Below are positions 7,925-35,834 of a DNA stretch of 47,835 nt, one piece after another. How positions within the stretch are numbered: position 1 is the stretch's first letter; every line of letters starts with the position of its first letter. Source of the DNA: Treponema sp. (GTDB lineage Bacteria > Spirochaetota > Spirochaetia > Treponematales > Breznakiellaceae). A program made the position numbers and the translations under genes. Below the pieces are notes generated by a model. That model worked only from the letters and a program-made list of their open reading frames with translations. It was not told the origin of the DNA and did no database searches. The stretch covers positions 1 through 47,835 of the forward strand of contig WQUW01000004.1 in NCBI GenBank assembly GCA_009781915.1, given 5' to 3'.

Positions 7925-8087
7925 CACGGAAATCAATTTTGTGAATAAATATACAACAAGTTCTAATTGTGGTTGAAAAACCCAATGAATTTTGCATTAT
8001 TTGGGGAAAAAGCCATCTAAGCACCTGTCCCATGCCTTCTATATTAAGCTGTTATGCATAAAATTATTCACAAAATTGATTTCCGTG
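7925..8087. repeat. Perfect 24-bp inverted repeat with a 115-bp spacer
   Basis: The arm CACGGAAATCAATTTTGTGA (plus ATAA) at 7925-7948 is repeated exactly as its reverse complement at 8064-8087. The 163-bp unit has the form of a small MITE or of a recombination remnant, and no ORF lies inside. A promoter begins 19 bp to its right. Its function is unknown. Confidence 0.75.
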
Positions 8088-8105
8088 TATAAAAATGAAT
8101 ACTGC

Positions 8106-8134
8106 TTGACATCATCAAAAAAACAATGTAAAAT
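8106..8134 (+). promoter_or_regulatory. Near-consensus sigma-70 promoter
   Basis: TTGACA (8106-8111), 17-nt spacer, TAAAAT (8129-8134). A GGAGG ribosome site follows at 8146-8150 and the ATG at 8155. The gene therefore carries its own strong constitutive-looking promoter. Confidence 0.75.
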
Positions 8135-8154
8135 TGTTTCTGTTTGGAGGAATT

Positions 8155-10056
8155 ATGCCTAATTTATTCACAACACTACAATATATTAAAACGACAGTTG
8201 ATGCTGGATTATCCATATGGGATAGCCTAATGAATTTAATGTCTAATGTAATTAGTACAAAAGCAATTAAAGAAGTATCAGCAGAAGTTTTTTGTAATGA
8301 ATTCGAAGATTATTATGGGATAAATATACCACTTCACCCTATGAATACTATCATTACAAAGATGAAAGATAAATCATTAATAGATAATAAATACGGGAAA
8401 TATACAATAAATTTTTCTGCAATTTCTGATATCGATATAAAAATTTTTAATCAGGATAAATTTGGAAATGTTCTTTCGGAAATGAAATCATTCGTTAAAA
8501 ATAATTTTGATATAGATAAAAACGAAAACGAAATCGAGAATATATTTATAGGGTATATAAATGCTTATGACAAGGATATTCTTTATGCCATAGAAACAAA
8601 TTCTATGCTTCCTACTGGAGATAACACAACTCGCTCTATCTATCTTGCAAGTTCTTTTATTGAGTTTATTGCAAATAGCAAGCCAAAATTACTGGAAATA
8701 ATTGAAGATATCATTCTTGCAAATATTCATTTACATTCAGTATTTTTTATTGATAAAAACCGTAAAATAAAATTAAATAGGGTTTTTGTATATTTAGATA
8801 CGCGTTTTATACTTAGATTAACAGGGATTGAAGGAATCTTTAGACAAGAAGAGTATAAAAATTTACTTGAAATACTTAGGCGTAATAACTGTAATCTACG
8901 CATTTTTGATGTTCATTATAAAGAAGTTGTGAGTATTTTAAATGATTGCAAGAAATGGCTCGAAGATAAAGAAAATTACGATCCCAAAATAGCCAGCAGA
9001 GCATTAAGATATTTTGTCGAAAACAATTACAAAGTCTCAGATGTTATTAAATGTGAAGCAGAAATTGATAATGTTATTAAAAATTATAAAATTGGTATAG
9101 ATGTTCACAATTACGAGGAAGAGGAATTAAACCAATATAATATTGATGAGAATCGTTTACGTGAAATTATTATTGATATTTATAACGAAAACTCATTTTA
9201 TTCTGATAATTATATAAAAGAATCAGCAATATGGAATGATATTAAAGCAATTTCAGCCATTTATAGAAAAAGAAAAGGATTTATTGCAAATGATTTACAG
9301 AATGTAAGAGCCGTTTTTGTTACCAATAATTACTCATTAGCTCGTGCTGTAAGAAAATACAATCTTGAAAATGGAAAAACAGAAAAATATAATGAGTGCT
9401 TAACAGATACTTATTGGGGAACTGCAATATGGCTAAACACAGCATATAGTGAAAATACTTATTTTGCAAGAAAATTACTGGCTGATTGTATTTCTTTAAC
9501 AGAGCTAAATCCAAAGCTAAAAGATAAATACTTAAAAACAATAAAAGAAAAAAACGACAATGGAGAAATTGTGGAAAATGAATATTATATGCTCCGAGAA
9601 TATCCTGGGGCTATAAGATATTTGCAGAACAAAACATTAAATGATGACAATGAATATGTTGATAGCTTGCCTGAAGAGATATTGTCACATTTCAGAGCTG
9701 AAGCAACAAAACCACTTGAGGAGATTATAAAAAATGAGCAAGTTAAGATAAAGAATCAAGAAGATGAAATCTTAGATCATAAAAAGAGAGTCGAAAACCA
9801 ACGAAAGCAAATAGAACTTTCGGCAAGGCGATTTGCAAAGTTTTCGCTTTTTATATTAGCTGTTGCTATGAATGTACCATCAATAGTATTAATGACACAA
9901 GATTTAATACCAAACAATTCTATTTTATGGGGTATTAGAATACTAGGTGCCTTTTTCGGAGTATTTTTTTCAATAAATGGATTTAAAGAATTGTCTTTAT
10001 TTAAGAGGCTATTCAAATACAAAAGGAAAACTTTATTGAGAAAATGGTCGATGTAG
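8155..10056 (+). CDS. Membrane-anchored protein with PIN-nuclease-like motifs, possible defence effector
   Basis: 633 aa from the ATG preceded by GGAGG; an earlier in-frame TTG at 8134 is part of the -10 box and is rejected. I do not recognise a named family. A PIN-like pattern of spaced acids is visible: D215 in VYLDTRFIL, E257 in DVHYKEVV, E356/D362 in ESAIWND, and a strand ending VFVTNN (387-392), similar to the T-N/D end motif of PIN nucleases. A charged coiled coil follows (about 520-560), then two hydrophobic segments (about 565-588 and 593-612) and a basic tail. I infer a membrane-tethered RNase-like protein. Base composition is strongly AT-rich, and it neighbours mazEF, which suggests a transferred defence or stress module. 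The nuclease call is tentative. Confidence 0.6.
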   Translation: MPNLFTTLQYIKTTVDAGLSIWDSLMNLMSNVISTKAIKEVSAEVFCNEFEDYYGINIPLHPMNTIITKMKDKSLIDNKYGKYTINFSAISDIDIKIFNQDKFGNVLSEMKSFVKNNFDIDKNENEIENIFIGYINAYDKDILYAIETNSMLPTGDNTTRSIYLASSFIEFIANSKPKLLEIIEDIILANIHLHSVFFIDKNRKIKLNRVFVYLDTRFILRLTGIEGIFRQEEYKNLLEILRRNNCNLRIFDVHYKEVVSILNDCKKWLEDKENYDPKIASRALRYFVENNYKVSDVIKCEAEIDNVIKNYKIGIDVHNYEEEELNQYNIDENRLREIIIDIYNENSFYSDNYIKESAIWNDIKAISAIYRKRKGFIANDLQNVRAVFVTNNYSLARAVRKYNLENGKTEKYNECLTDTYWGTAIWLNTAYSENTYFARKLLADCISLTELNPKLKDKYLKTIKEKNDNGEIVENEYYMLREYPGAIRYLQNKTLNDDNEYVDSLPEEILSHFRAEATKPLEEIIKNEQVKIKNQEDEILDHKKRVENQRKQIELSARRFAKFSLFILAVAMNVPSIVLMTQDLIPNNSILWGIRILGAFFGVFFSINGFKELSLFKRLFKYKRKTLLRKWSM

Positions 10057-22841: not shown

Positions 22842-23810
22842 GTGAAAAGAACAGTTTTATTAGCGTTAGCCGGCTTATTGGTGATGTCCTTGGCGGCCTT
22901 TACAGGGTGCAGGGGCGATGGGGAGTTTCCCTCCAGAAACATTACCATGATTAGCCCTTGGGCCGCCGGAGGCGGTACGGATGCCGTAGCGCGGGCGTTA
23001 GCGTCTGCCGCCGAAAGAGAGCTTGGCGTTAACATCATTGTCGAAAACAGAACCGGCGGCGGCGGGGCCGTAGGCCATGCGGCAATCAGGAACGCGAGGC
23101 CGGACGGTTACACAGTGGGCATTTTCACCTTTGAAATCAATTCCATACCGCAGCAAGGGTTGATTGATTTTACGTGGGAAGATTACGACCCCCTTATGCT
23201 CGTTAATGCGGAAGCTGCGGCGCTTACCGTTCATATTAACGCCCCCTTTAACACTGTGCAGGAGTTTGTGGATTTCGCCAGGCAGAACCCGGGGGCGATA
23301 ACCATCGGCAACTCCGCGCCCGGTTCAGTGTGGCACATCGCCGCCGGCCTGTTTGCGGATCAGACAGGCATTCAGGTAAACCACGTTCCCTTCGAAGGCG
23401 CGGCCCCTGCCGTTATCGCTCTGGCTGGCGGACACATACAGGCAGTCGCCGTATCGCTGGGCGAGGTAAGAAGCCAGCTCGACGCGGGGAATGTAAAGGT
23501 TCTTGGCGTTATGGATACTCAGCGCAGCGAAATGTTTCCGGACGTCCCGACTTTCATTGAACAGGGCTTTGACGTTGTTATGGAAACATGGCGCGGCCTT
23601 GCCTTGCCAAGAGGCGTGGATCCGGAAATCAGGGAAACCCTTGAAAGAGCTTTCACCACCGCAATGCATTCCCAATTTTTTCAAGATCAGATGAGAAACC
23701 TGAACTTGGTTCCGACATTCATGGCTGCCGAGCCATTCAGGGAATTCCTTGGGGAAAATAAGGATGCGATTACCAGAACAATGGTTAGCCTTGGAATGAT
23801 AATGGAATAA
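22842..23810 (+). CDS. tctC: Tripartite tricarboxylate transporter substrate-binding lipoprotein
   Basis: 322 aa. The start GTG is preceded by GGAGG. It has a lipoprotein signal with lipobox FTGC (Cys22). The TctC (Bug) fold is shown by FPSRNITMISPWAAGGGTD, ENRTGGGGAVG, ARPDGYTVG, VNHVPFEGAAPAVIALAGG and GVMDTQRSEMFPDVPTF. It captures a carboxylate (citrate or a related acid) outside the inner membrane and hands it to TctB/TctA. The ligand is not predictable. It is the first gene of tctC-tctB-tctA; a hairpin with TTTT follows, which should keep TctC more abundant than the membrane subunits. Confidence 0.93.
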   Translation: MKRTVLLALAGLLVMSLAAFTGCRGDGEFPSRNITMISPWAAGGGTDAVARALASAAERELGVNIIVENRTGGGGAVGHAAIRNARPDGYTVGIFTFEINSIPQQGLIDFTWEDYDPLMLVNAEAAALTVHINAPFNTVQEFVDFARQNPGAITIGNSAPGSVWHIAAGLFADQTGIQVNHVPFEGAAPAVIALAGGHIQAVAVSLGEVRSQLDAGNVKVLGVMDTQRSEMFPDVPTFIEQGFDVVMETWRGLALPRGVDPEIRETLERAFTTAMHSQFFQDQMRNLNLVPTFMAAEPFREFLGENKDAITRTMVSLGMIME

Positions 23811-23820
23811 TCAACTCAGG

Positions 23821-23856
23821 CCCATGCAGGCCAAATAACGGGCCTGTATGGGTTTT
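23821..23856 (+). terminator. Attenuating terminator between tctC and tctB
   Basis: A 12-bp stem (CCCATGCAGGCC with GGCCTGTATGGG, one G-U pair) with an 8-nt loop is followed directly by TTTT. The short T-run suggests partial read-through to tctB. Confidence 0.7.
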
Positions 23857-23891
23857 GAAATGTTTTCAGCACAAAAAAAAGGGAGCTTCCG

Positions 23892-24362
23892 GTGAAAAAT
23901 GCGAATATCGTTTGCGGCCTTGTAGGGATGGCATTTAGCGCCTTCGCTTTTGTAAGAACACTTGGTTTCCGGCAATTTCCGCTTGTTCCAATAGGGCCGG
24001 AATTCTTCCCGCGTCATTTGGCGATAGGGCTTTTCGCCTGTTCCGCTATCTTGGTTATTCAGTCGCTTTTAGCAAAGCCCAAAAAAGAAGAAAAAGCGCC
24101 AACGCTAAGCCCTTTCGACAAAGGCATGAGGCGGCTTTTTGCTGGTATCGCCATCATCATCGTCTACGCCCTGTTGTGGGAGCCGGTGGGATTCCTTATA
24201 GCGACACCTTTGGCAATGGCAGCCATGATGCTCCTTTTGGGGTATCGCAGATATGTGATGATAGCAATTTTTTCTCTGGGGACAACGCTGATTGTTTTTG
24301 CGGCATTCAGTTTTTTCTTGAATGTTTTCATGCCGCCGGGCATTCTGCGGGGACTGTTGTAA
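23892..24362 (+). CDS. tctB: Tripartite tricarboxylate transporter small membrane subunit
   Basis: 156 aa. Start GTG with GGGAG upstream. Four hydrophobic segments (about 5-22, 40-60, 85-115, 122-145) and the start GLVGMAFSAFAFV...GPEFFPRHLAI are typical of TctB. It forms the membrane complex with TctA and contacts the binding protein. Position between tctC and tctA confirms the assignment, since TctB sequences are weakly conserved. Confidence 0.88.
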   Translation: MKNANIVCGLVGMAFSAFAFVRTLGFRQFPLVPIGPEFFPRHLAIGLFACSAILVIQSLLAKPKKEEKAPTLSPFDKGMRRLFAGIAIIIVYALLWEPVGFLIATPLAMAAMMLLLGYRRYVMIAIFSLGTTLIVFAAFSFFLNVFMPPGILRGLL

Positions 24363-24374
24363 AAGGAGAGGGTC

Positions 24375-25886
24375 ATGGATGTTGAAATGTTAACCGGTGC
24401 GGCAGCTCTGGTTTTTAATCCCCATACATTGTTTATTATTGTTACAGGAGCGGCGGCAGGTATCGTTGTTGGCGCTATACCGGGCCTTACGTCAACCATG
24501 AGTATCGCCCTGCTTATCCCCTTTACCCACGGAATGTCAATTATCCCCGCCATCGGGATGCTGATAGGCGTTTTCTTCGGGGCCATGTACGGCGGCTCCA
24601 TAGCGGCGATTTTGATAAACACACCCGGAACCCCCGCCGCCGCCGCTACGGTTCTGGACGGCCACCCCATGACAAAAAAGGGAGAGGCTGGCAAGGCCCT
24701 TGCCATAGCCCTGTTCGCCTCGATTTGCGGCGGAATGACAGGCGCTCTGGCTATGACTTTTTTAAGCCCCTTTATCTCCAGATTTGCCCTAAGGTTCGGC
24801 CCCGCAGAGCTTTTTGCGCTGGCGGTGTTTGGCCTTTCGGTAATTATTTCTATTTCGGGCAAAAGCCTTCTAAAAGGGTTAATGGTAGGCTTCTTTGGCC
24901 TTCTTATCGCAACCGTTGGCATGGACAGGCTCTCTGGCTACTTGCGCTTTACACGGCACATGGGCTTGGTTGAAGGGATTCCTTTTATTCCGGGGCTTAT
25001 TGGCCTGTTTGCCATCACTGAAGTATTCAACGGCATTGAAAAAATATTTTCGGCGGAAAAGGTCAAGGCGAAAATATCAGGCGTTCTTCCCACGTGGCAG
25101 GACATTAAAAAAATCGGACGGGCAGTTTTTACCGGCAGCACCATTGGTTCGTTCATTGGCACAATTCCCGGCGTGGGCAGCGACATTGCGGCCTTTGTCT
25201 CCTATTCCGAGGCAAAGCGCACAAGCAAACACCCCGAAAAGTTCGGAACCGGAGCCCCCGAAGGCGTTGCCGCCGCCGAATCCGCAAACAGCTCCTGCGC
25301 CTGCGGCTCGATGATCCCCATGCTGTCTTTGGGCGTACCGGGCGATTCAAATACCGCAGTGTTGATGGGAGCGTTCATCATACACGGTTTCCAGCCGGGG
25401 CCGATGATGTATGTCCAGCACTTGGATATAGTTTACGCTGTCTTTATCGCAATGTTCCTGTCAAATATCGCCGTATTTTTGGCTGGAATGGCAGGCATCA
25501 AATTCTTTGCCAAAATCGTTTCCATCGAGCGCAAGCTGCTTCTTCCGGCGGTACTGGTGCTTTCGCTTGTAGGCTCTTTCGCCATAAACAGGAATATGTT
25601 TGATGTGTTCTTTGCCATTGGCATGGGCGGCGTTGGCTATCTTTTAACAAAATACGGATTTCCCCTAAGCCCCATACTGCTTGCCCTTATCCTTGGCCCC
25701 ATGAGCGAAGCCAACCTTCGCAGGTTCATGATGATTCATGACGGCGAGTTCTGGCTGATTTTTACAAGGCCCATCAGCCTGATCTTGATTTTACTAGCCG
25801 TGGCTTCTTTGGTTTCTTCGGTTATCAATCAGCGCAGGATCAACAGGCGTATCGAGGCGGAGGAAGCGGCGCTCTTAAAGCCATGA
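24375..25886 (+). CDS. tctA: Tripartite tricarboxylate transporter large permease
   Basis: 503 aa with about twelve membrane segments. The family motifs GAIPGLTSTMSIALLIPFT, YGGSIAAILINTPGTPAAAAT, GTIPGVGSDIAAFVSY and SLGVPGDSNTAVLMGA are all present. It carries out secondary, ion-driven uptake of the carboxylate delivered by TctC. AAGGAGAGGG precedes the ATG, 12 nt after tctB. It is the last gene of the operon. Confidence 0.95.
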   Translation: MDVEMLTGAAALVFNPHTLFIIVTGAAAGIVVGAIPGLTSTMSIALLIPFTHGMSIIPAIGMLIGVFFGAMYGGSIAAILINTPGTPAAAATVLDGHPMTKKGEAGKALAIALFASICGGMTGALAMTFLSPFISRFALRFGPAELFALAVFGLSVIISISGKSLLKGLMVGFFGLLIATVGMDRLSGYLRFTRHMGLVEGIPFIPGLIGLFAITEVFNGIEKIFSAEKVKAKISGVLPTWQDIKKIGRAVFTGSTIGSFIGTIPGVGSDIAAFVSYSEAKRTSKHPEKFGTGAPEGVAAAESANSSCACGSMIPMLSLGVPGDSNTAVLMGAFIIHGFQPGPMMYVQHLDIVYAVFIAMFLSNIAVFLAGMAGIKFFAKIVSIERKLLLPAVLVLSLVGSFAINRNMFDVFFAIGMGGVGYLLTKYGFPLSPILLALILGPMSEANLRRFMMIHDGEFWLIFTRPISLILILLAVASLVSSVINQRRINRRIEAEEAALLKP

Positions 25887-30353: not shown

Positions 30354-30719
30354 GCATTGTTGGGGGGGAAGAGGGGTTTACGTGCGGCACTGTTTGACGG
30401 CATTTGCTGGAGGCGTTTGCCGCAAACTGCGCAAAAACTACTTATCACCTCAAATTTGATGCGGTAGACTGCATCGTTTTCAATTGGTTTCAACGTATTG
30501 CTAACGATTTTTGCCAAAAAATGATTAAAAAATTGAGTTTTTGCACAGTCTGTGCCGGAGAAGGCCTCGCGCCGAGGTTACTGTCAAAATGTATAGGTTT
30601 TGACAGTTGCCTGATGTGTGCATTTACGGGCCTAACCGAGGTTCGGAACGGACTCAGTGTGCATTTGCGGGCGTATGCCCGTAATAAATATTTTTAGGAA
30701 GAAATGTACGGAGGTAAGT
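30354..30719 (+). other. Leader region of the flavin operon, no credible gene
   Basis: 366 bp between repeat copy 2 and the FAD reductase gene. It holds a 10-bp palindrome over a TTGACA (30580-30607), two direct repeats of about 16 bp (GTGTGCATTTACGGGC near 30617 and GTGTGCATTTGCGGGC near 30657) and a small CGGGC-GTAT-GCCCG hairpin (30667-30680) before the GGAGG. ORFs that cross it have no recognisable family and no ribosome site. Confidence 0.55.
30580..30628 (+). promoter_or_regulatory. Candidate flavin-operon promoter with operator palindrome
   Basis: ACTGTCAAAA (30580-30589) and TTTTGACAGT (30598-30607) are exact complements around an 8-nt centre. The right arm contains a -35 TTGACA (30600-30605), followed 17 nt later by a weak -10, TTTACG (30623-30628). 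A protein bound to the palindrome would cover the -35 box. Confidence 0.45.
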
Positions 30720-32885
30720 ATGACAAGAGTTTTTTGGGTATTTTTGGTGGTTTTCGCAAGCTCATTATTCATGGCCTGCGAAAATACGGTTATCAGGTAT
30801 CGTGATGTAACCGTAGAGGTAGACCGCAACGACTGGCTTGGCAGTTCTCCCGGCATCACCGACGCTATGGTGGCTCCCGGCAGAGTATATACCACGCAAG
30901 TTGTGGTTATCGGAGCCGGAGCGTCAGGGCTTGCCGCAGCGCGCGCCGCAGCCGAGGAACTTGACACCCCGGGGGCGGTAATCGTTATCGAACGGGAAAT
31001 CAGCCTGCATAGCCGCGGTATCGTCTTTGGCGCGATAAATTCAAACTGGACACGCCAGCTTTGTGATTTAAGCAACATCAGGATAACATGGACTGAGGAT
31101 GAAAAACTTGATGTAGCCACGGTAATGTGGCAGCAATCAGGGCACCGCGCGAGTTTGGGCCAATGGACAAGGTGGGCATTTGAATCCGGCGCCGCTTTTG
31201 ACTGGTTCGAGAACGCTTTTTATATGCCCGGTTCGCCATGGCAAACTGGCATTGGCGGCGCTGCCGGAACACCTGGCGCAATTGGTCCGGCGTTATTCGC
31301 GTTTCCCACTATGGGGCCCCAGAAAGGATACACCGCGCCTGTAGCTCAGCCGGGAGCCGCAAATTACCCGTGGTTTTCAACGTCCGGCAATAATCGCAGG
31401 GGCTTTTACCTCCAGTTTGTCTGGCCGGGGAATAACCGGCATCCCGTTGTACCCAGCGCCCCCGCCACAATACAGGGAGTTCCCCACTTTCTGGTCGGGC
31501 ATAACTTCCAGGTGCCGAATCCGGCCTTCGGCGATGCGTTTGGCATGAGCGGCAACTGGACAGTCGCGTTACGGTCGCAGCAATGGGCCGCTGAACAGGC
31601 AGGTGCCGAGTTCCGCTTTCTTCACGACGCGCTACAGCTCATTGTTGATGAAGACGGCGCGGTCGTCGGGGTATATGTCGAAGACATAGTAACCGGGCAG
31701 ATCATCAGAGTAAACGCAACAAGAGGCGTCATTCTTGCGACAGGCTGTTACAGTCAAAACCCGGACATGGTACGGGTTCTTAATCCCGAATTTACCACGG
31801 CTACAGGAACCCTCGTAACCGGGCCCGCCCGGAATGACGGTTCGGGCCACAGGATGGCTATATGGGCCGGCGCCAAGATGGAACCGGGGCCCCACGCGCA
31901 CATGAGCCACTCGCAAGGCGGCGTAGGAGGCCAGTTTGTCGCCACTTTGATGGTCAACGAGCATGGCAACCGCTTTATGAACGAAAACGCCTCTCCCCAG
32001 TTTATAACCAATCAGGTGATCCGCCAGCCCATGCGGAACCGCATCCATTTCGCGGACAACAGGTTTGCTGAGATGCTTCCGTACACGTGGTCTCCTTTCC
32101 ACGGAGCCTCGGACATCTACAACCTCGCCTTTTTCGAGATGGTAGCTCCCGCTGGCCCTCAGCCCACCCTTGAAGCGCTGGTCTTCGCAACATACCAGCC
32201 TGCGGCTAATCGTACTGAAGCTCAAGCTGTGGGGATTCGCGCTGCCGCTTTAAGCTCGATTCTTAGGTATAACGGACTGGCCGGGTACAGGCTGGTTAGC
32301 CAAACGCCTGTTACATCTACAGTAGCGATAACGGTAGGAGTGGGGCCGGGAGCGGTAACAACCGAACACCAGGTGCCGGGTTACGACAGGGAGTGGGTTC
32401 ATATTACAGATCCCTCTTACGCGAACCACAACCCTGCTTGGTCGCAGCTCGATCTTGATTTCGGCAAGAGAACCCGCATGTGGGCGCTTGTCGAGGCTCC
32501 CTTCTTCTTTGGAAGGTCCGCAAACGCCACAGGGATGGTAAAGGGAGGAATCATGGTTAATGATAACTTCCGGGTGCTTAGAGCGGATCCGTGGACTGGC
32601 ACGGCAGCGGGCGGAGCCGGGTGGACTACTCCCGGACATCCAATTCCCGGCCTGTGGGCGGTTGGCAATGTGGCAGGCGGACGCTTCGCCGGGCACTATG
32701 TATTAAACGCCGCCGCGACTTCCCACGGTACTGCTGTTACTTTCGGCAGGCACGCAGGCACATACGCTTCTGGCGGTGATTTGGCTCAGCTCAGAACAGT
32801 TTCCGGCGGACAGTCTCCGGCGGCGCTGCCATTTGCGAGACCGGTATTTAGCATTCCCGCTGACGTTATGGATCCTTGGAATTAA
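30720..32885 (+). CDS. Lipoprotein FAD-dependent reductase (fumarate reductase/flavocytochrome c type)
   Basis: 721 aa from the ATG after GGAGG. The lipoprotein signal ends in LFMAC (Cys20), so this flavoenzyme is exported and lipid-anchored. The Rossmann FAD motif is VVVIGAGASGLAAARA (about 62-77). GGVGGQFVATLMVNEHGNRF and the C-terminal GLWAVGNVAGG...VLNAAATSHGTAVTFGRHAG are FAD_binding_2 family motifs shared with fumarate reductase and urocanate or methacrylate reductases. It has no FMN_bind domain or heme motif of its own; instead three FMN_bind lipoproteins follow in the operon and likely deliver electrons. It is expected to reduce an organic electron acceptor outside the inner membrane. 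The acceptor is unknown. Confidence 0.88.
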   Translation: MTRVFWVFLVVFASSLFMACENTVIRYRDVTVEVDRNDWLGSSPGITDAMVAPGRVYTTQVVVIGAGASGLAAARAAAEELDTPGAVIVIEREISLHSRGIVFGAINSNWTRQLCDLSNIRITWTEDEKLDVATVMWQQSGHRASLGQWTRWAFESGAAFDWFENAFYMPGSPWQTGIGGAAGTPGAIGPALFAFPTMGPQKGYTAPVAQPGAANYPWFSTSGNNRRGFYLQFVWPGNNRHPVVPSAPATIQGVPHFLVGHNFQVPNPAFGDAFGMSGNWTVALRSQQWAAEQAGAEFRFLHDALQLIVDEDGAVVGVYVEDIVTGQIIRVNATRGVILATGCYSQNPDMVRVLNPEFTTATGTLVTGPARNDGSGHRMAIWAGAKMEPGPHAHMSHSQGGVGGQFVATLMVNEHGNRFMNENASPQFITNQVIRQPMRNRIHFADNRFAEMLPYTWSPFHGASDIYNLAFFEMVAPAGPQPTLEALVFATYQPAANRTEAQAVGIRAAALSSILRYNGLAGYRLVSQTPVTSTVAITVGVGPGAVTTEHQVPGYDREWVHITDPSYANHNPAWSQLDLDFGKRTRMWALVEAPFFFGRSANATGMVKGGIMVNDNFRVLRADPWTGTAAGGAGWTTPGHPIPGLWAVGNVAGGRFAGHYVLNAAATSHGTAVTFGRHAGTYASGGDLAQLRTVSGGQSPAALPFARPVFSIPADVMDPWN

Positions 32886-32909
32886 TAACAACTGATTACT
32901 GGTTCTAAC

Positions 32910-32943
32910 AACAAGGCTGTCCGGGCAACCGGGCCGCCTTGTT
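32910..32943 (+). other. Intercistronic hairpin after the reductase gene
   Basis: AACAAGGC..CCGG pairs with CCGG..GCCTTGTT around a short loop, with two internal mismatches, followed by AAAAATG rather than T residues. Probably an RNA processing or stability element between the reductase and the first FMN_bind gene. Confidence 0.55.
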
Positions 32944-32964
32944 AAAAATGTTGAAGGAGAAACT

Positions 32965-33384
32965 ATGCGTACTTTTATTAAAAGCGTTTTCGTGTGCTGC
33001 GCCTTCGCGCTGCTTGCGGGGCTAACCAGTTGCGATAATGGCGCTGACGGCGGAACCGGGACAGGGGCATGGAGCGCAGGATTCAGGCAAAATGAAGAAG
33101 CCATAGGTTCGGCTGTTGGCTATCACCCCCCAGGCCAGGTGTCCGTAACAATGAGGCTGGACAATGGATTCATTCGCATTGTGGACATCGATGTGCAACA
33201 TGAAACTTTACAAATTGTCGGGGTAAATCAAAGGCCAAATAGCATCAGAAATGTTATTGAACAGAGAAATAGTTTTGATGGCATTCGTACAGTAGATGTG
33301 CATGGAGCATCCGGGGCGACCGTTACTTTTAACGCCATCCTTAATGCCGGCAGAGAAGCTCTTGAAAGCCTTAGGGATGATTAA
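32965..33384 (+). CDS. FMN_bind lipoprotein 1
   Basis: 139 aa. Lipobox GLTSC (Cys23). Residues about 35-139 resemble an FMN_bind domain: SAVGYHPPGQVSVTMRLDNGFI then the modification site HGASGATVT (113-121). The acceptor would be T119. The usual motif is D-x-x-[ST]-G-A-T; here His113 takes the place of Asp, so covalent FMN attachment by ApbE may be weaker or absent. AAGGAG precedes the ATG. It is the first of three tandem paralogues. No apbE gene is in the window. Likely role: electron carrier to the adjoining FAD reductase. Confidence 0.78.
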   Translation: MRTFIKSVFVCCAFALLAGLTSCDNGADGGTGTGAWSAGFRQNEEAIGSAVGYHPPGQVSVTMRLDNGFIRIVDIDVQHETLQIVGVNQRPNSIRNVIEQRNSFDGIRTVDVHGASGATVTFNAILNAGREALESLRDD

Positions 33385-33399
33385 GGGCAGGAGGTAATG

Positions 33400-33852
33400 A
33401 TGAATAGAAAAGTGAAACGGCCCGGATTGCTTTGCGCCGCTGTGATTGTAGCAACGTTATTTTTTAGCGGATGCACGATGGAGGCTGACAACAACGGTGA
33501 GAACGGCAGGGTTCCCATTCCCGGAAATCCAACAGGCGGGCCAGTAACACGGTTTGCCGATGGCTGGGCGAGTACTCCGGCCGCTGACTTTACGGAAGAA
33601 TATCCCGGCCGTGAGCCCGGACAGCAGGTATCGGTAACGCTTACGGTAACAAACGGATTTATCACGTATGTAAGGCTCGAAGGGCCGGACGAAAGCTATT
33701 ATTGGTGGGTGTTTGATATGCTGCGTGATGATATTATGGCGGACAACACATTTGAATTTGACCTAGATGGCTTTACTGGAGCGACCTATACCTCCAGGGC
33801 AGTAAGAGACGCTGGAAGAGCGGCATTGCAGGCAATAATAGACGGAAATTAA
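33400..33852 (+). CDS. FMN_bind lipoprotein 2 (canonical flavinylation motif)
   Basis: 150 aa from the second of two adjacent ATGs, the better spaced from AGGAGG. Lipobox LFFSGC (Cys25). The FMN_bind part (about 45-150) has VSVTLTVTNGFITYVRL and the full covalent-FMN motif DGFTGAT (123-129) with acceptor T129, followed by SRAVRDAGRAAL. The match to the ApbE target consensus is exact, so this protein should carry covalently bound FMN on the extracytoplasmic face. It lies 15 nt after the first paralogue. Confidence 0.85.
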   Translation: MNRKVKRPGLLCAAVIVATLFFSGCTMEADNNGENGRVPIPGNPTGGPVTRFADGWASTPAADFTEEYPGREPGQQVSVTLTVTNGFITYVRLEGPDESYYWWVFDMLRDDIMADNTFEFDLDGFTGATYTSRAVRDAGRAALQAIIDGN

Positions 33853-33871
33853 AGTGTTGTTTCTCACACGT

Positions 33872-33900
33872 TACCCCTGCTGCCGCAAGGCGCGGGGGTA
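33872..33900 (+). other. Intercistronic hairpin with GCAA tetraloop
   Basis: TACCCC..GCC pairs with GGC..GGGGTA, capped by a GCAA tetraloop, with one bulge. It lies between FMN_bind genes 2 and 3. There is no T-run. Confidence 0.5.
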
Positions 33901-33929
33901 CTGTATCAATCTTTTGAAGGAAAAAAGCG

Positions 33930-34343
33930 ATGAAAATTAAATTTTTAATGTCAGCCGCATTTGCGCTTGTATGCTTAGCGCTTGCGGCCTGCATTATCCA
34001 ACATGAAGTGCCGCCCCTCAGAGGAGCATGGGGCACAGCGAATTCTAATACCGGCAGTTTTACCGGTTCCGCAATAGGTTATAGCGGCGGTGAAGTTGGC
34101 GTTTACATCAGGCTTGCCCAAGGGGTTATTGTTGAGGTCAGAATCGATGTTTCAACTCAAACTCCTGTGTACATGCGTCTTGATAACCTTCCACAGGCGC
34201 TTGAAAGCAGAGTGCGGGAAACAAACACGTTTGATTTTTCTCCTGACGCTTTCACTTCCGCCACTACCGTAAGGGCCGCCAGGGACGCGGGGAGGCAGGC
34301 TCTGCTGCAAGTCCCCGGCGTACCGCCAAACTATTTTGACTAA
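33930..34343 (+). CDS. FMN_bind lipoprotein 3
   Basis: 137 aa. Lipobox LALAAC (Cys21). SAIGYSGGEVGVYIRLAQGVIVEV matches the start of the FMN_bind domain in the two preceding proteins. The modification site is DAFTSAT (106-112), acceptor T112, with Ser in place of Gly, a variant also seen in flavinylated proteins. ARDAGRQAL follows, as in paralogue 2. AAGGAA precedes the ATG. The three-gene array looks like serial duplication of one carrier. Confidence 0.8.
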   Translation: MKIKFLMSAAFALVCLALAACIIQHEVPPLRGAWGTANSNTGSFTGSAIGYSGGEVGVYIRLAQGVIVEVRIDVSTQTPVYMRLDNLPQALESRVRETNTFDFSPDAFTSATTVRAARDAGRQALLQVPGVPPNYFD

Positions 34344-34384
34344 CAGTTCGAGCGTCAATCAAATTTCCTAAGGAGGAATACAAC

Positions 34385-35437
34385 ATGAAAAAAGCGATTA
34401 TCGCTATTTTACTTACAAGCGTCCTGTCAGCCGCCGCCTTTGCCCAAGTCTTGTTCAGCGGGGAAGTCTTTGCCGGCATTCAGCTTCAAAGAAACCATAA
34501 CGAGAATGAAACTATCGGCACCTATCACCGGGACGAAGGAGCGCCACGGTTCGATTTTACCGCCACGGTTGTCAGGGAAAACTACGGGGCACGGCTGGAT
34601 ACCTCTTTCCAGATGTTCAACGAACCCGACAGGCATGTTACCCTGAACGGCATTTACGGCTGGGTCAATCTTCCGGGGTTGTTTGGCGATGATTCGTTCC
34701 GGCTTACGATGGGCCAAATCTCAAGCCCGGCATGGGTCACCAGATTGCACGCCGACCTTCCTGAGCATTACCTTGATAAAATAAGGGGCTTCCGTATCGA
34801 GTACGCTACGCCCATGCCGGGCCTAAGCGTGGGCGCCGCGTTTAGAACCACTGGCGCCGATGGAAACAATTACGACTTGGAAACATTTGCCAAGAACATG
34901 ATTTTTGGAGCGAACTTTATTCACCCCATGTTTAGCGCGGTGTTCGCGTGGGATGTTGGCGGTAACGCCCAGACCATTTTCGGGTTTAATTTTACGGGCA
35001 TTCCCGATTTGACCGCCGGGCTCCAGCTTAGGGCCAACAGGCTTGCCTCGTGGGACGACCCGCCGCATGGCTATCCGGGAATGCTCCAAGTTCACTACAA
35101 AGTTGGGTACCGGATAATGCGGCCCCTTTTCACCTATTTGATTTTTGGGCAGAGGTTCCACGGGCAGTCCGGCGTGGGCCCATACTGGGAGATAACGCCC
35201 GGCGTTGAGTACAGTTTTCTTCCGAACTTGACCGGCTCGTTTAGCGTAACGCTGGATAATTTTGAAGGAAACCCGCTTTTTGGCGGGACGCCAAACAACA
35301 ACCTGACACTAAGGCCTGCCCTTGAACTGATGCTTGCGGGCCCCGCGTTTTTCTATGCCGAATATGTGTTACGGATGGAAAACATGGAAAGAAATTATCA
35401 CACATTCGGCTTTGGCATAACCATCCGGGCGTTCTAG
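34385..35437 (+). CDS. Outer-membrane beta-barrel protein of the flavin locus
   Basis: 350 aa from ATG with AAGGAGG. Signal peptide MKKAIIAILLTSVLSAAAFA, cleavage before QVLF. The mature part alternates strands throughout (RFDFTATVVRENYGARLDTSFQMF, FRLTMGQISSP, LSVGAAFRTTG, LTAGLQLRANRL) and ends in TFGFGITIRAF, with a terminal Phe as in outer-membrane barrels. It is probably a 14- to 16-stranded porin-like protein. It follows the FMN_bind genes by 41 nt and likely lets the electron acceptor or its product cross the outer membrane. The family name is not recognised. Confidence 0.78.
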   Translation: MKKAIIAILLTSVLSAAAFAQVLFSGEVFAGIQLQRNHNENETIGTYHRDEGAPRFDFTATVVRENYGARLDTSFQMFNEPDRHVTLNGIYGWVNLPGLFGDDSFRLTMGQISSPAWVTRLHADLPEHYLDKIRGFRIEYATPMPGLSVGAAFRTTGADGNNYDLETFAKNMIFGANFIHPMFSAVFAWDVGGNAQTIFGFNFTGIPDLTAGLQLRANRLASWDDPPHGYPGMLQVHYKVGYRIMRPLFTYLIFGQRFHGQSGVGPYWEITPGVEYSFLPNLTGSFSVTLDNFEGNPLFGGTPNNNLTLRPALELMLAGPAFFYAEYVLRMENMERNYHTFGFGITIRAF

Positions 35438-35486
35438 GCGGGGCCTGCCCGCGGTGTGCCCGAAACGTGCCTGTACTGTGCCTGCT

Positions 35487-35834
35487 ATGAACAGAACCGG
35501 CTTCAGAACAAACCTGCGATCGGCGCTTACCTCCCGTGGCCTTACGGTCAGGGAGTTAAGCGTGATAACAGGTATCGCCAAGGGCACGCTGGACTGCTAC
35601 CTTGGCGCGCGCGCCTCGATGCCCCCGGCGGACATTGCCGCGAAGATAGCCGCCGCGTTAGGCGTAACGGTTGAATACCTCGTAAGCAGGCATGAAGCGC
35701 AGGCACGGGAAAGCGAAAGGCGGGAAAATGCCATCGGCGCGGTACTTCAACACTTGGCAGAGCTTGACGAACGGGATGTCCAGACGGTACTGACTCTTTC
35801 CAAAACACTGAAAACTCAGGCGGAACGAGCGTAA
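35487..35834 (+). CDS. XRE-family regulator (115 aa)
   Basis: The Cro/C1-type HTH spans residues about 6-65 (TVRELSVITGIAKGTLDCYL then LGVTVEYLVSR). It is a paralogue of the regulator at 19932-20261. The ATG at 35487 has no clear ribosome site; TACTGT lies 7 nt upstream. An in-frame ATG at 35454 is possible but would add an unconserved stretch. It lies just after the flavin locus on the same strand, 49 nt from the barrel gene, so it may sense or regulate that locus. The target is unproven. Confidence 0.8.
   Translation: MNRTGFRTNLRSALTSRGLTVRELSVITGIAKGTLDCYLGARASMPPADIAAKIAAALGVTVEYLVSRHEAQARESERRENAIGAVLQHLAELDERDVQTVLTLSKTLKTQAERA

Follow-up and report, generated by a model that had tools for sequence, protein, structure and literature searches.

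We analysed a stretch of 47,835 nucleotides from a Treponema sp. of the termite-gut type (GCA_009781915.1, contig WQUW01000004.1), referred to as the window, and found that its flavoprotein locus is one of about 17 cassettes in the genome, each composed of a leader hairpin, a catalytic lipoprotein, zero to three lipoproteins with a flavin mononucleotide-binding (FMN_bind) domain, an outer-membrane beta-barrel, and a gene for a helix-turn-helix (HTH) protein. The multi-copy cassette probably serves the extracytoplasmic reduction of organic compounds via a heme-free flavin relay. As to its architecture, we favour, with reasonable but incomplete confidence, a platform of terminal reductases that works in the periplasm without heme and is equipped with a solute porin of its own, and not a demonstrated surface conduit.

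The cassette genes of the window occupy positions 30720-35834 of the + strand and are all co-directional. The first encodes P0001, the predicted catalytic subunit, a fumarate-reductase-like lipoprotein of the flavin adenine dinucleotide (FAD) family FAD_binding_2 (30720..32885). It is followed by the FMN_bind lipoproteins P0002 (32965..33384), P0003 (33397..33852), and P0004 (33930..34343), the barrel (34385..35437), and a Cro/C1-type HTH protein (35487..35834; Pfam HTH_26, E=6e-5; possible earlier GTG start at 35454). The first-pass annotation had described the first five genes as one run, and all five are present, in this order, on the + strand; the HTH gene and the leader (30664..30694, + strand) are additions to its list. 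The intergenic gaps are short (79, 12, 77, 41, and ~50 bp), so that an operon is plausible. A lipobox, judged by eye, is seen in the FAD protein and in all three FMN_bind proteins, in agreement with the lipid anchors that had been proposed for them.

The cassettes were collected region by region from an assembly of 2.82 Mb in 180 contigs that is 97% complete (G000). The barrel family comprises 10 near-complete genes as well as seven N-terminal and seven C-terminal pieces at contig ends, i.e. about 17 genes. An FMN_bind or FAD gene directly adjoins each of the 17 barrels whose 5′ side is assembled, and an HTH gene of one family follows the barrel in 15 of the 16 cassettes with an assembled 3′ side. 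The 31-base leader, a GCGGGCGTATGCCCGT hairpin with an AT-rich tract directly 5′ of the first gene, has 16 matches in the genome, compared to none for a reversed control pattern. Nearly all copies stand directly 5′ of the gene with which a cassette begins; one sits at the end of contig C88, and on C113 one stands before a lipoprotein gene with features of a rhodanese. The predicted stem has 8 bp, and a GGGC-GTAT-GCCC stem is preserved via G-U pairs in the variant forms. No Rfam entry matched the leader at the gathering threshold, and a riboswitch or another RNA of known type was rejected on this basis. No sigma-70 promoter was found on the + strand upstream of the FAD gene, the counts being equal to those of shuffled sequences. 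Palindromic intergenic repeats were observed upstream of several leaders, i.e. at 30580-30607 and upstream of L066, L070, L072, and L075, with the pairs ACTGTCAAAA...TTTTGACAGT, CCGTTCCGAACCT...AGGTTCGGAACGG, and GCTGTTCCAAAAT...ATTTTGGAACAGC; these may serve as sites of recombination or be extragenic repeats of the ordinary kind.

The Pfam FMN_bind model matches P0002 (E=1.8e-7) and P0003 (E=2.7e-6), and P0004 is below its threshold. A hold-out profile, built without any protein of the window, recovers all three (P0003, 9.9e-21; P0002, 4.8e-18; P0004, 4e-17), compared to E values above 1 for 600 shuffles. The acceptor Thr is kept in P0002 (T119, 33319-33321, within HGASGAT), P0003 (T130, 33784-33786, within DGFTGAT), and P0004 (T112, 34263-34265, within DAFTSAT); only P0003 has the full flavinylation consensus D-x-x-[ST]-G-A-[ST], as given in a review of ApbE (PMC12052999). 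Two of these acceptors had been named previously: T112 is the same residue, and T129 corresponds to T130 if the second Met is the start. Genome-wide, a Thr/Ser acceptor is found in 44 of 44 FMN domains examined, 17 of them with the full consensus. For comparison, we counted FMN_bind domains at E<=0.01, which number 39 in this genome and 0-13 (median 3) in 58 relatives. The barrel-adjacent FMN_bind lipoproteins (e.g. 33990-34005) have a common anchor, C-[IVPF]-x-[EQ]-x, which sets them apart from several other carriers. P0004 (C-I-I-Q) carries this barrel-proximal signature, which is also found in other cassettes, and the anchor of P0002 is C-D-N; the signature is perhaps a signal for outer-membrane sorting or for barrel binding. 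Carriers described earlier as tripled are indeed three in the window, but the number of separate carriers in the module ranges from zero to three, and the window shows one of these states.

The earlier proposal of an exported, lipid-anchored flavin reductase system, which had been made to depend on apbE elsewhere in the genome, is supported by the presence of ApbE and Rnf donors. Three ApbE genes lie above the cut-off, one of them on the contig of the C31 cassette and one adjoining an FMN_bind gene (C57). The membrane electron source that had been called for is present more than once: Rnf operons are found at C29, alongside a cassette, and at C51, with a third RnfC/RnfD locus at C6, and there are three RnfD/NqrB-type genes. 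In addition, a protein similar to NDH-2 and a dual-FMN_bind lipoprotein are encoded next to each other on C23 (L067 174-2856; counterpart at L096 5272-8483). This NDH-2-like protein is 78% identical to that of a congener, which also adjoins FMN_bind genes, and the pair is a possible entry to the flavin relay fed by reduced nicotinamide adenine dinucleotide (NADH). No CcmF-type cytochrome c assembly gene (PF01578) was found in the genome, in accordance with the heme-free character claimed at first. MenD is likewise missing above the cut-off; the futalosine route was not searched for. For T. pallidum, a flavin metabolism that is based on Rnf and does without quinones has been put forward (PMC7512555).

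The barrel belongs to a cassette-specific family without a Pfam match, and its porin-type fold was assigned from an AlphaFold2 model and Foldseek. The model (predicted local distance difference test, pLDDT, 84) has about 18 antiparallel strands, and the best Protein Data Bank (PDB) matches are OmpT, OpdK and other Occ porins, PorB, MOMP, and the anion-selective Omp32, with E values of 2e-9 to 1e-7 (OmpT, OpdK, PorB, and MOMP), TM-scores of only 0.46-0.63, and identities of 8-13%. Because the modelled barrel of about 18 strands resembles solute porins, we favour a solute porin for substrate uptake rather than an electron conduit. A dicarboxylate porin, DipA, has been described from another spirochete (PMC3349712). 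The alternative would be a heme-free counterpart of the porin-cytochrome systems, in which barrel and lipid-anchored flavoproteins lead electrons through the outer membrane to acceptors that are insoluble or bulky, e.g. humics or iron. It could build on the invariable adjacency of flavin lipoproteins and barrel, on the separate class of barrel-proximal carriers with their constant anchor signature, and on two cassettes (C31 and C113) that have no FAD enzyme in their assembled part. The barrel is, however, likely too narrow for an FMN_bind domain, and most cassettes encode an FAD enzyme of the soluble-substrate type, so that a surface conduit appears unlikely. The surface location suggested by the first-pass annotation is not supported, as no evidence puts the lipoproteins on the outer face of the cell and the barrel resembles a solute porin. 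One barrel copy (L075 88-858, contig C11) is interrupted by a TAG stop and may be a pseudogene.

The most likely start of P0001 is the ATG at 30720 (MTRVFWVFLVVFASSLFMAC), with the lipobox FMAC and the ribosome-binding site GGAGG; a GTG at 30657 is an unlikely alternative. P0001 matches Pfam FAD_binding_2 (PF00890) with E=4e-26, and its best PDB matches, by sequence and by fold, are flavocytochrome c3 and urocanate reductase (fold matches 1qo8 and 6t86). An alignment with the canonical-site paralogues L068, L086, and L106 revealed that P0001 lacks equivalents of Arg402, His504, and Arg544 of FccA, which we take to be active-site residues. The Arg pair of this site binds the two carboxylates of the substrate, and its absence suggests that the P0001 substrate lacks them. 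Canonical residues are kept in the three named paralogues and are replaced in P0001 and two homologues with about 43% identity (in G024 and G029), which have the same alternative signature, HAHMSH, ATSHGTA, and GNVAGGR. Like P0001, most cassette paralogues are devoid of fumarate-reductase active-site residues, suggesting that the substrates of the cassettes are probably diverse and other than C4-dicarboxylates; a classical C4-dicarboxylate is not expected for P0001. Among 393 Spirochaetota genomes, no further members of this subfamily and, at E<=1e-60, no P0001 orthologue besides the window's own were found, and with only the two relatives mentioned, both in the family, the substrate is not deducible by orthology. 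As a conjecture, plant phenolics or humic-type compounds in the termite gut would suit P0001. Could the enzyme work in the opposite direction, i.e. as an oxidative enzyme of the ketosteroid or cyclohexanone dehydrogenase type that sends electrons inward through the FMN carriers? The missing FccA residues are compatible with this, and the fold of P0001 also matches that of these dehydrogenases, but fumarate and urocanate reductases are its best fold and sequence matches. Moreover, without a CcmF-type gene or MenD over the cut-off, there is no obvious electron acceptor of higher potential. We thus regard an oxidative role as quite unlikely and retain the reductive one.

The cargo between leader and barrel varies. 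Among the FAD enzymes, the number of fused FMN domains ranges from zero to two, and some have N-terminal fn3 domains. Non-FAD cargo is found in C113 and C31, namely a propeller and a rhodanese or a 595-residue lipoprotein of no assigned kind. On contig C113 (L082 1917-6756 and L147 180-1280), there are two leader copies, and rhodanese-like and propeller lipoproteins replace the FAD enzyme. Rhodanese-type cargo in one cassette might hint at a role in the defence against peroxide or oxygen, or in general periplasmic redox upkeep, and gut spirochetes do encounter oxygen at the gut wall. However, FAD cores similar to fumarate and urocanate reductases and the many different active sites fit a diversity of substrates better than a single stress role, and we judge such a function improbable compared to the respiration of organic acceptors.

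Within the cassettes, the variation is localized. In six of them (L066, L070, L072, L078, L079, and L085), the coding sequence that ends with the lipobox Cys shows 90-96% identity in pairwise comparisons, and the 75 bases upstream are 78-99% identical. The identity drops to 58-77% in the next 150 bases, near the level of unrelated pairs here, and the mature enzymes have only 26-38% amino acid identity; the break just past the lipobox is sharp. L084 and L086 represent a second signal-peptide type with the same pattern (93% and 32%). The FAD gene of the window has its leader in common with other cassettes (80-96% over 75 bases, L071 excepted) and a signal peptide of its own. Recent exchange or gene conversion of the cassette flanks is the likely cause of the break, as judged from these identities, because selection on the signal peptide alone is not expected to preserve synonymous sites. 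A more far-reaching proposal, which we put forward with some reserve as it is at present rather less probable than not, is that the constant frame is a platform in which exported redox enzymes and flavin carriers are exchanged by homologous recombination, each cassette having its own porin. A constant leader and signal peptide next to a variable mature part, together with barrels that are up to 98% identical in pieces and break the assembly, might also suggest a surface-antigen family diversifying by antigenic or phase variation, with incidental enzyme activity, but even very divergent copies have lost no FMN acceptor residue and hardly any FAD Rossmann motif, making this very improbable.

A pattern scan for the barrel in 84,980 species genomes yielded one locus, and a profile search within the family yielded more. 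Clear homologues in the family are present in G001, G032, G082 (two), G137, G138, and G181 (two). An FMN_bind gene adjoins the barrel at seven of the eight loci, and the eighth (G137) is at a contig end; in G032 and at both G082 loci, a fused FMN_bind-FAD lipoprotein adjoins the barrel. The locus of G032 (L094) is a simpler version of the cassette. In the homologous loci examined, no match to the HTH gene and no convincing match to the leader were found, and thus both the constant frame and the multiplication of the cassette seem confined to the lineage of the window. From the same comparison, the linkage of FAD enzyme, carrier, and barrel is older than the expansion. A plasmid origin of the cassette was considered and rejected, as plasmids gave weak FAD-domain matches only.

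Taken together, the cassette may work as follows. Reductant would exit the cytoplasm through Rnf (two operons and the third RnfC/RnfD locus) or through the NDH-2-like flavoprotein and the dual-FMN lipoprotein. The small FMN_bind lipoproteins would receive FMN on their acceptor Thr from ApbE and would relay electrons along the envelope to the FAD lipoprotein. The latter would reduce a double bond or a similar group of a substrate that enters via the cassette's own porin-like barrel, and the HTH protein would probably tune the expression of the cassette. A constant frame is formed by leader and signal peptide on the 5′ side and by barrel and HTH gene on the 3′ side, and the mature catalytic lipoprotein in between varies. 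The variable cargo, i.e. FAD enzymes with different active sites, rhodanese, propeller, and others, could thus provide many terminal reductases per genome.

Several points weigh against this reading. The model of P0001 is of only moderate confidence (pLDDT 63). The assembly is split into 180 contigs, with seven barrels divided over contig ends, and the linkage counts within the genome are not independent, the cassettes being duplicates. The window cassette itself contains no electron-donor gene. The membrane assigned to each treponemal carrier lipoprotein is a guess. Lastly, the flavinylation motifs of P0002 and P0004 are off-consensus, with His in place of Asp and Ser in place of Gly, respectively. 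Loss of the Asp has a small effect, and a Gly-to-Ala exchange leaves about half of the flavinylation (PMC12052999); because changes of a like kind are tolerated in part, P0002 and P0004 may still be modified.

The extracytosolic flavinylated reductases such as Listeria FrdA and Shewanella UrdA (PMC8238504) have the PF00890 domain, an export signal, FMN_bind/ApbE flavinylation, and a transmembrane donor such as Rnf in common with the window system. In contrast, the window enzyme lacks canonical active-site residues, its carriers are separate lipoproteins, and the cassette adds a barrel, an HTH gene, a common leader, and about 17 copies per genome. Separate carriers have precedents. The first-pass annotation had stated that the FMN_bind domain is usually fused or that a cytochrome carries the electrons, which is correct as a tendency, but Meheust et al. 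2021 already listed 189 clusters in 171 genomes with PF00890 proteins and separate FMN-binding neighbours, including clusters with several carriers (PMC8238504). The flavin-centric Rnf system of T. pallidum (TP0796/Ftp and flavinylated TP0171; PMC7512555, PMC12052999) is likewise treponemal and includes Rnf, ApbE, and a flavinylated periplasmic lipoprotein; its independence of quinones is a further likeness. However, these papers do not ascribe an expanded set of barrel-bearing FAD reductase cassettes to T. pallidum. Occ/OprD-type, PorB, and general porins (e.g. OpdK with vanillate, PDB 2y2x) share the porin-type fold, but the window barrel is outside their sequence families and genetically linked to flavin lipoproteins. 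MtrCAB-type conduits also have a barrel encoded beside redox lipoproteins. They differ by a 26-strand barrel, compared to about 18 strands in the smaller window barrel, and the window system shows no sign of heme proteins and has FAD enzymes of the soluble-substrate type. Thus, separate FMN-binding carriers are already known. What looks new is a cassette in many copies that swaps its cargo and includes both a porin and a regulator; a literature search of limited reach retrieved no account of a multi-copy cassette that bears these two genes and has constant flanks.

Two further features of the window were observed. Genes for TctC and TctA of a tripartite tricarboxylate transporter are located at 22842-25886, about 5 kb upstream of the cassette, and their uptake of organic acids may be related to it. 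The region 8001-10000 is an island with 28% G+C, compared to about 53% in the window; it is probably foreign DNA, and its 640-residue open reading frame (8134-10056) has a weak DUF4337 match only.

The results suggest a way in which a gut spirochete that lacks c-type cytochrome assembly could use many organic compounds in respiration. They link an outer-membrane porin family to flavin respiration, a link that is absent from the main survey of flavinylated systems, the text of which mentions neither Spirochaetes, porins, barrels, nor lipoproteins (PMC8238504). The constant frame with variable cargo represents a testable route for recruiting new respiratory enzymes. If the exchange of cargo within this frame holds true, a single spirochete would have at its disposal a large set of acceptor reductases that work without heme and possibly without quinones.

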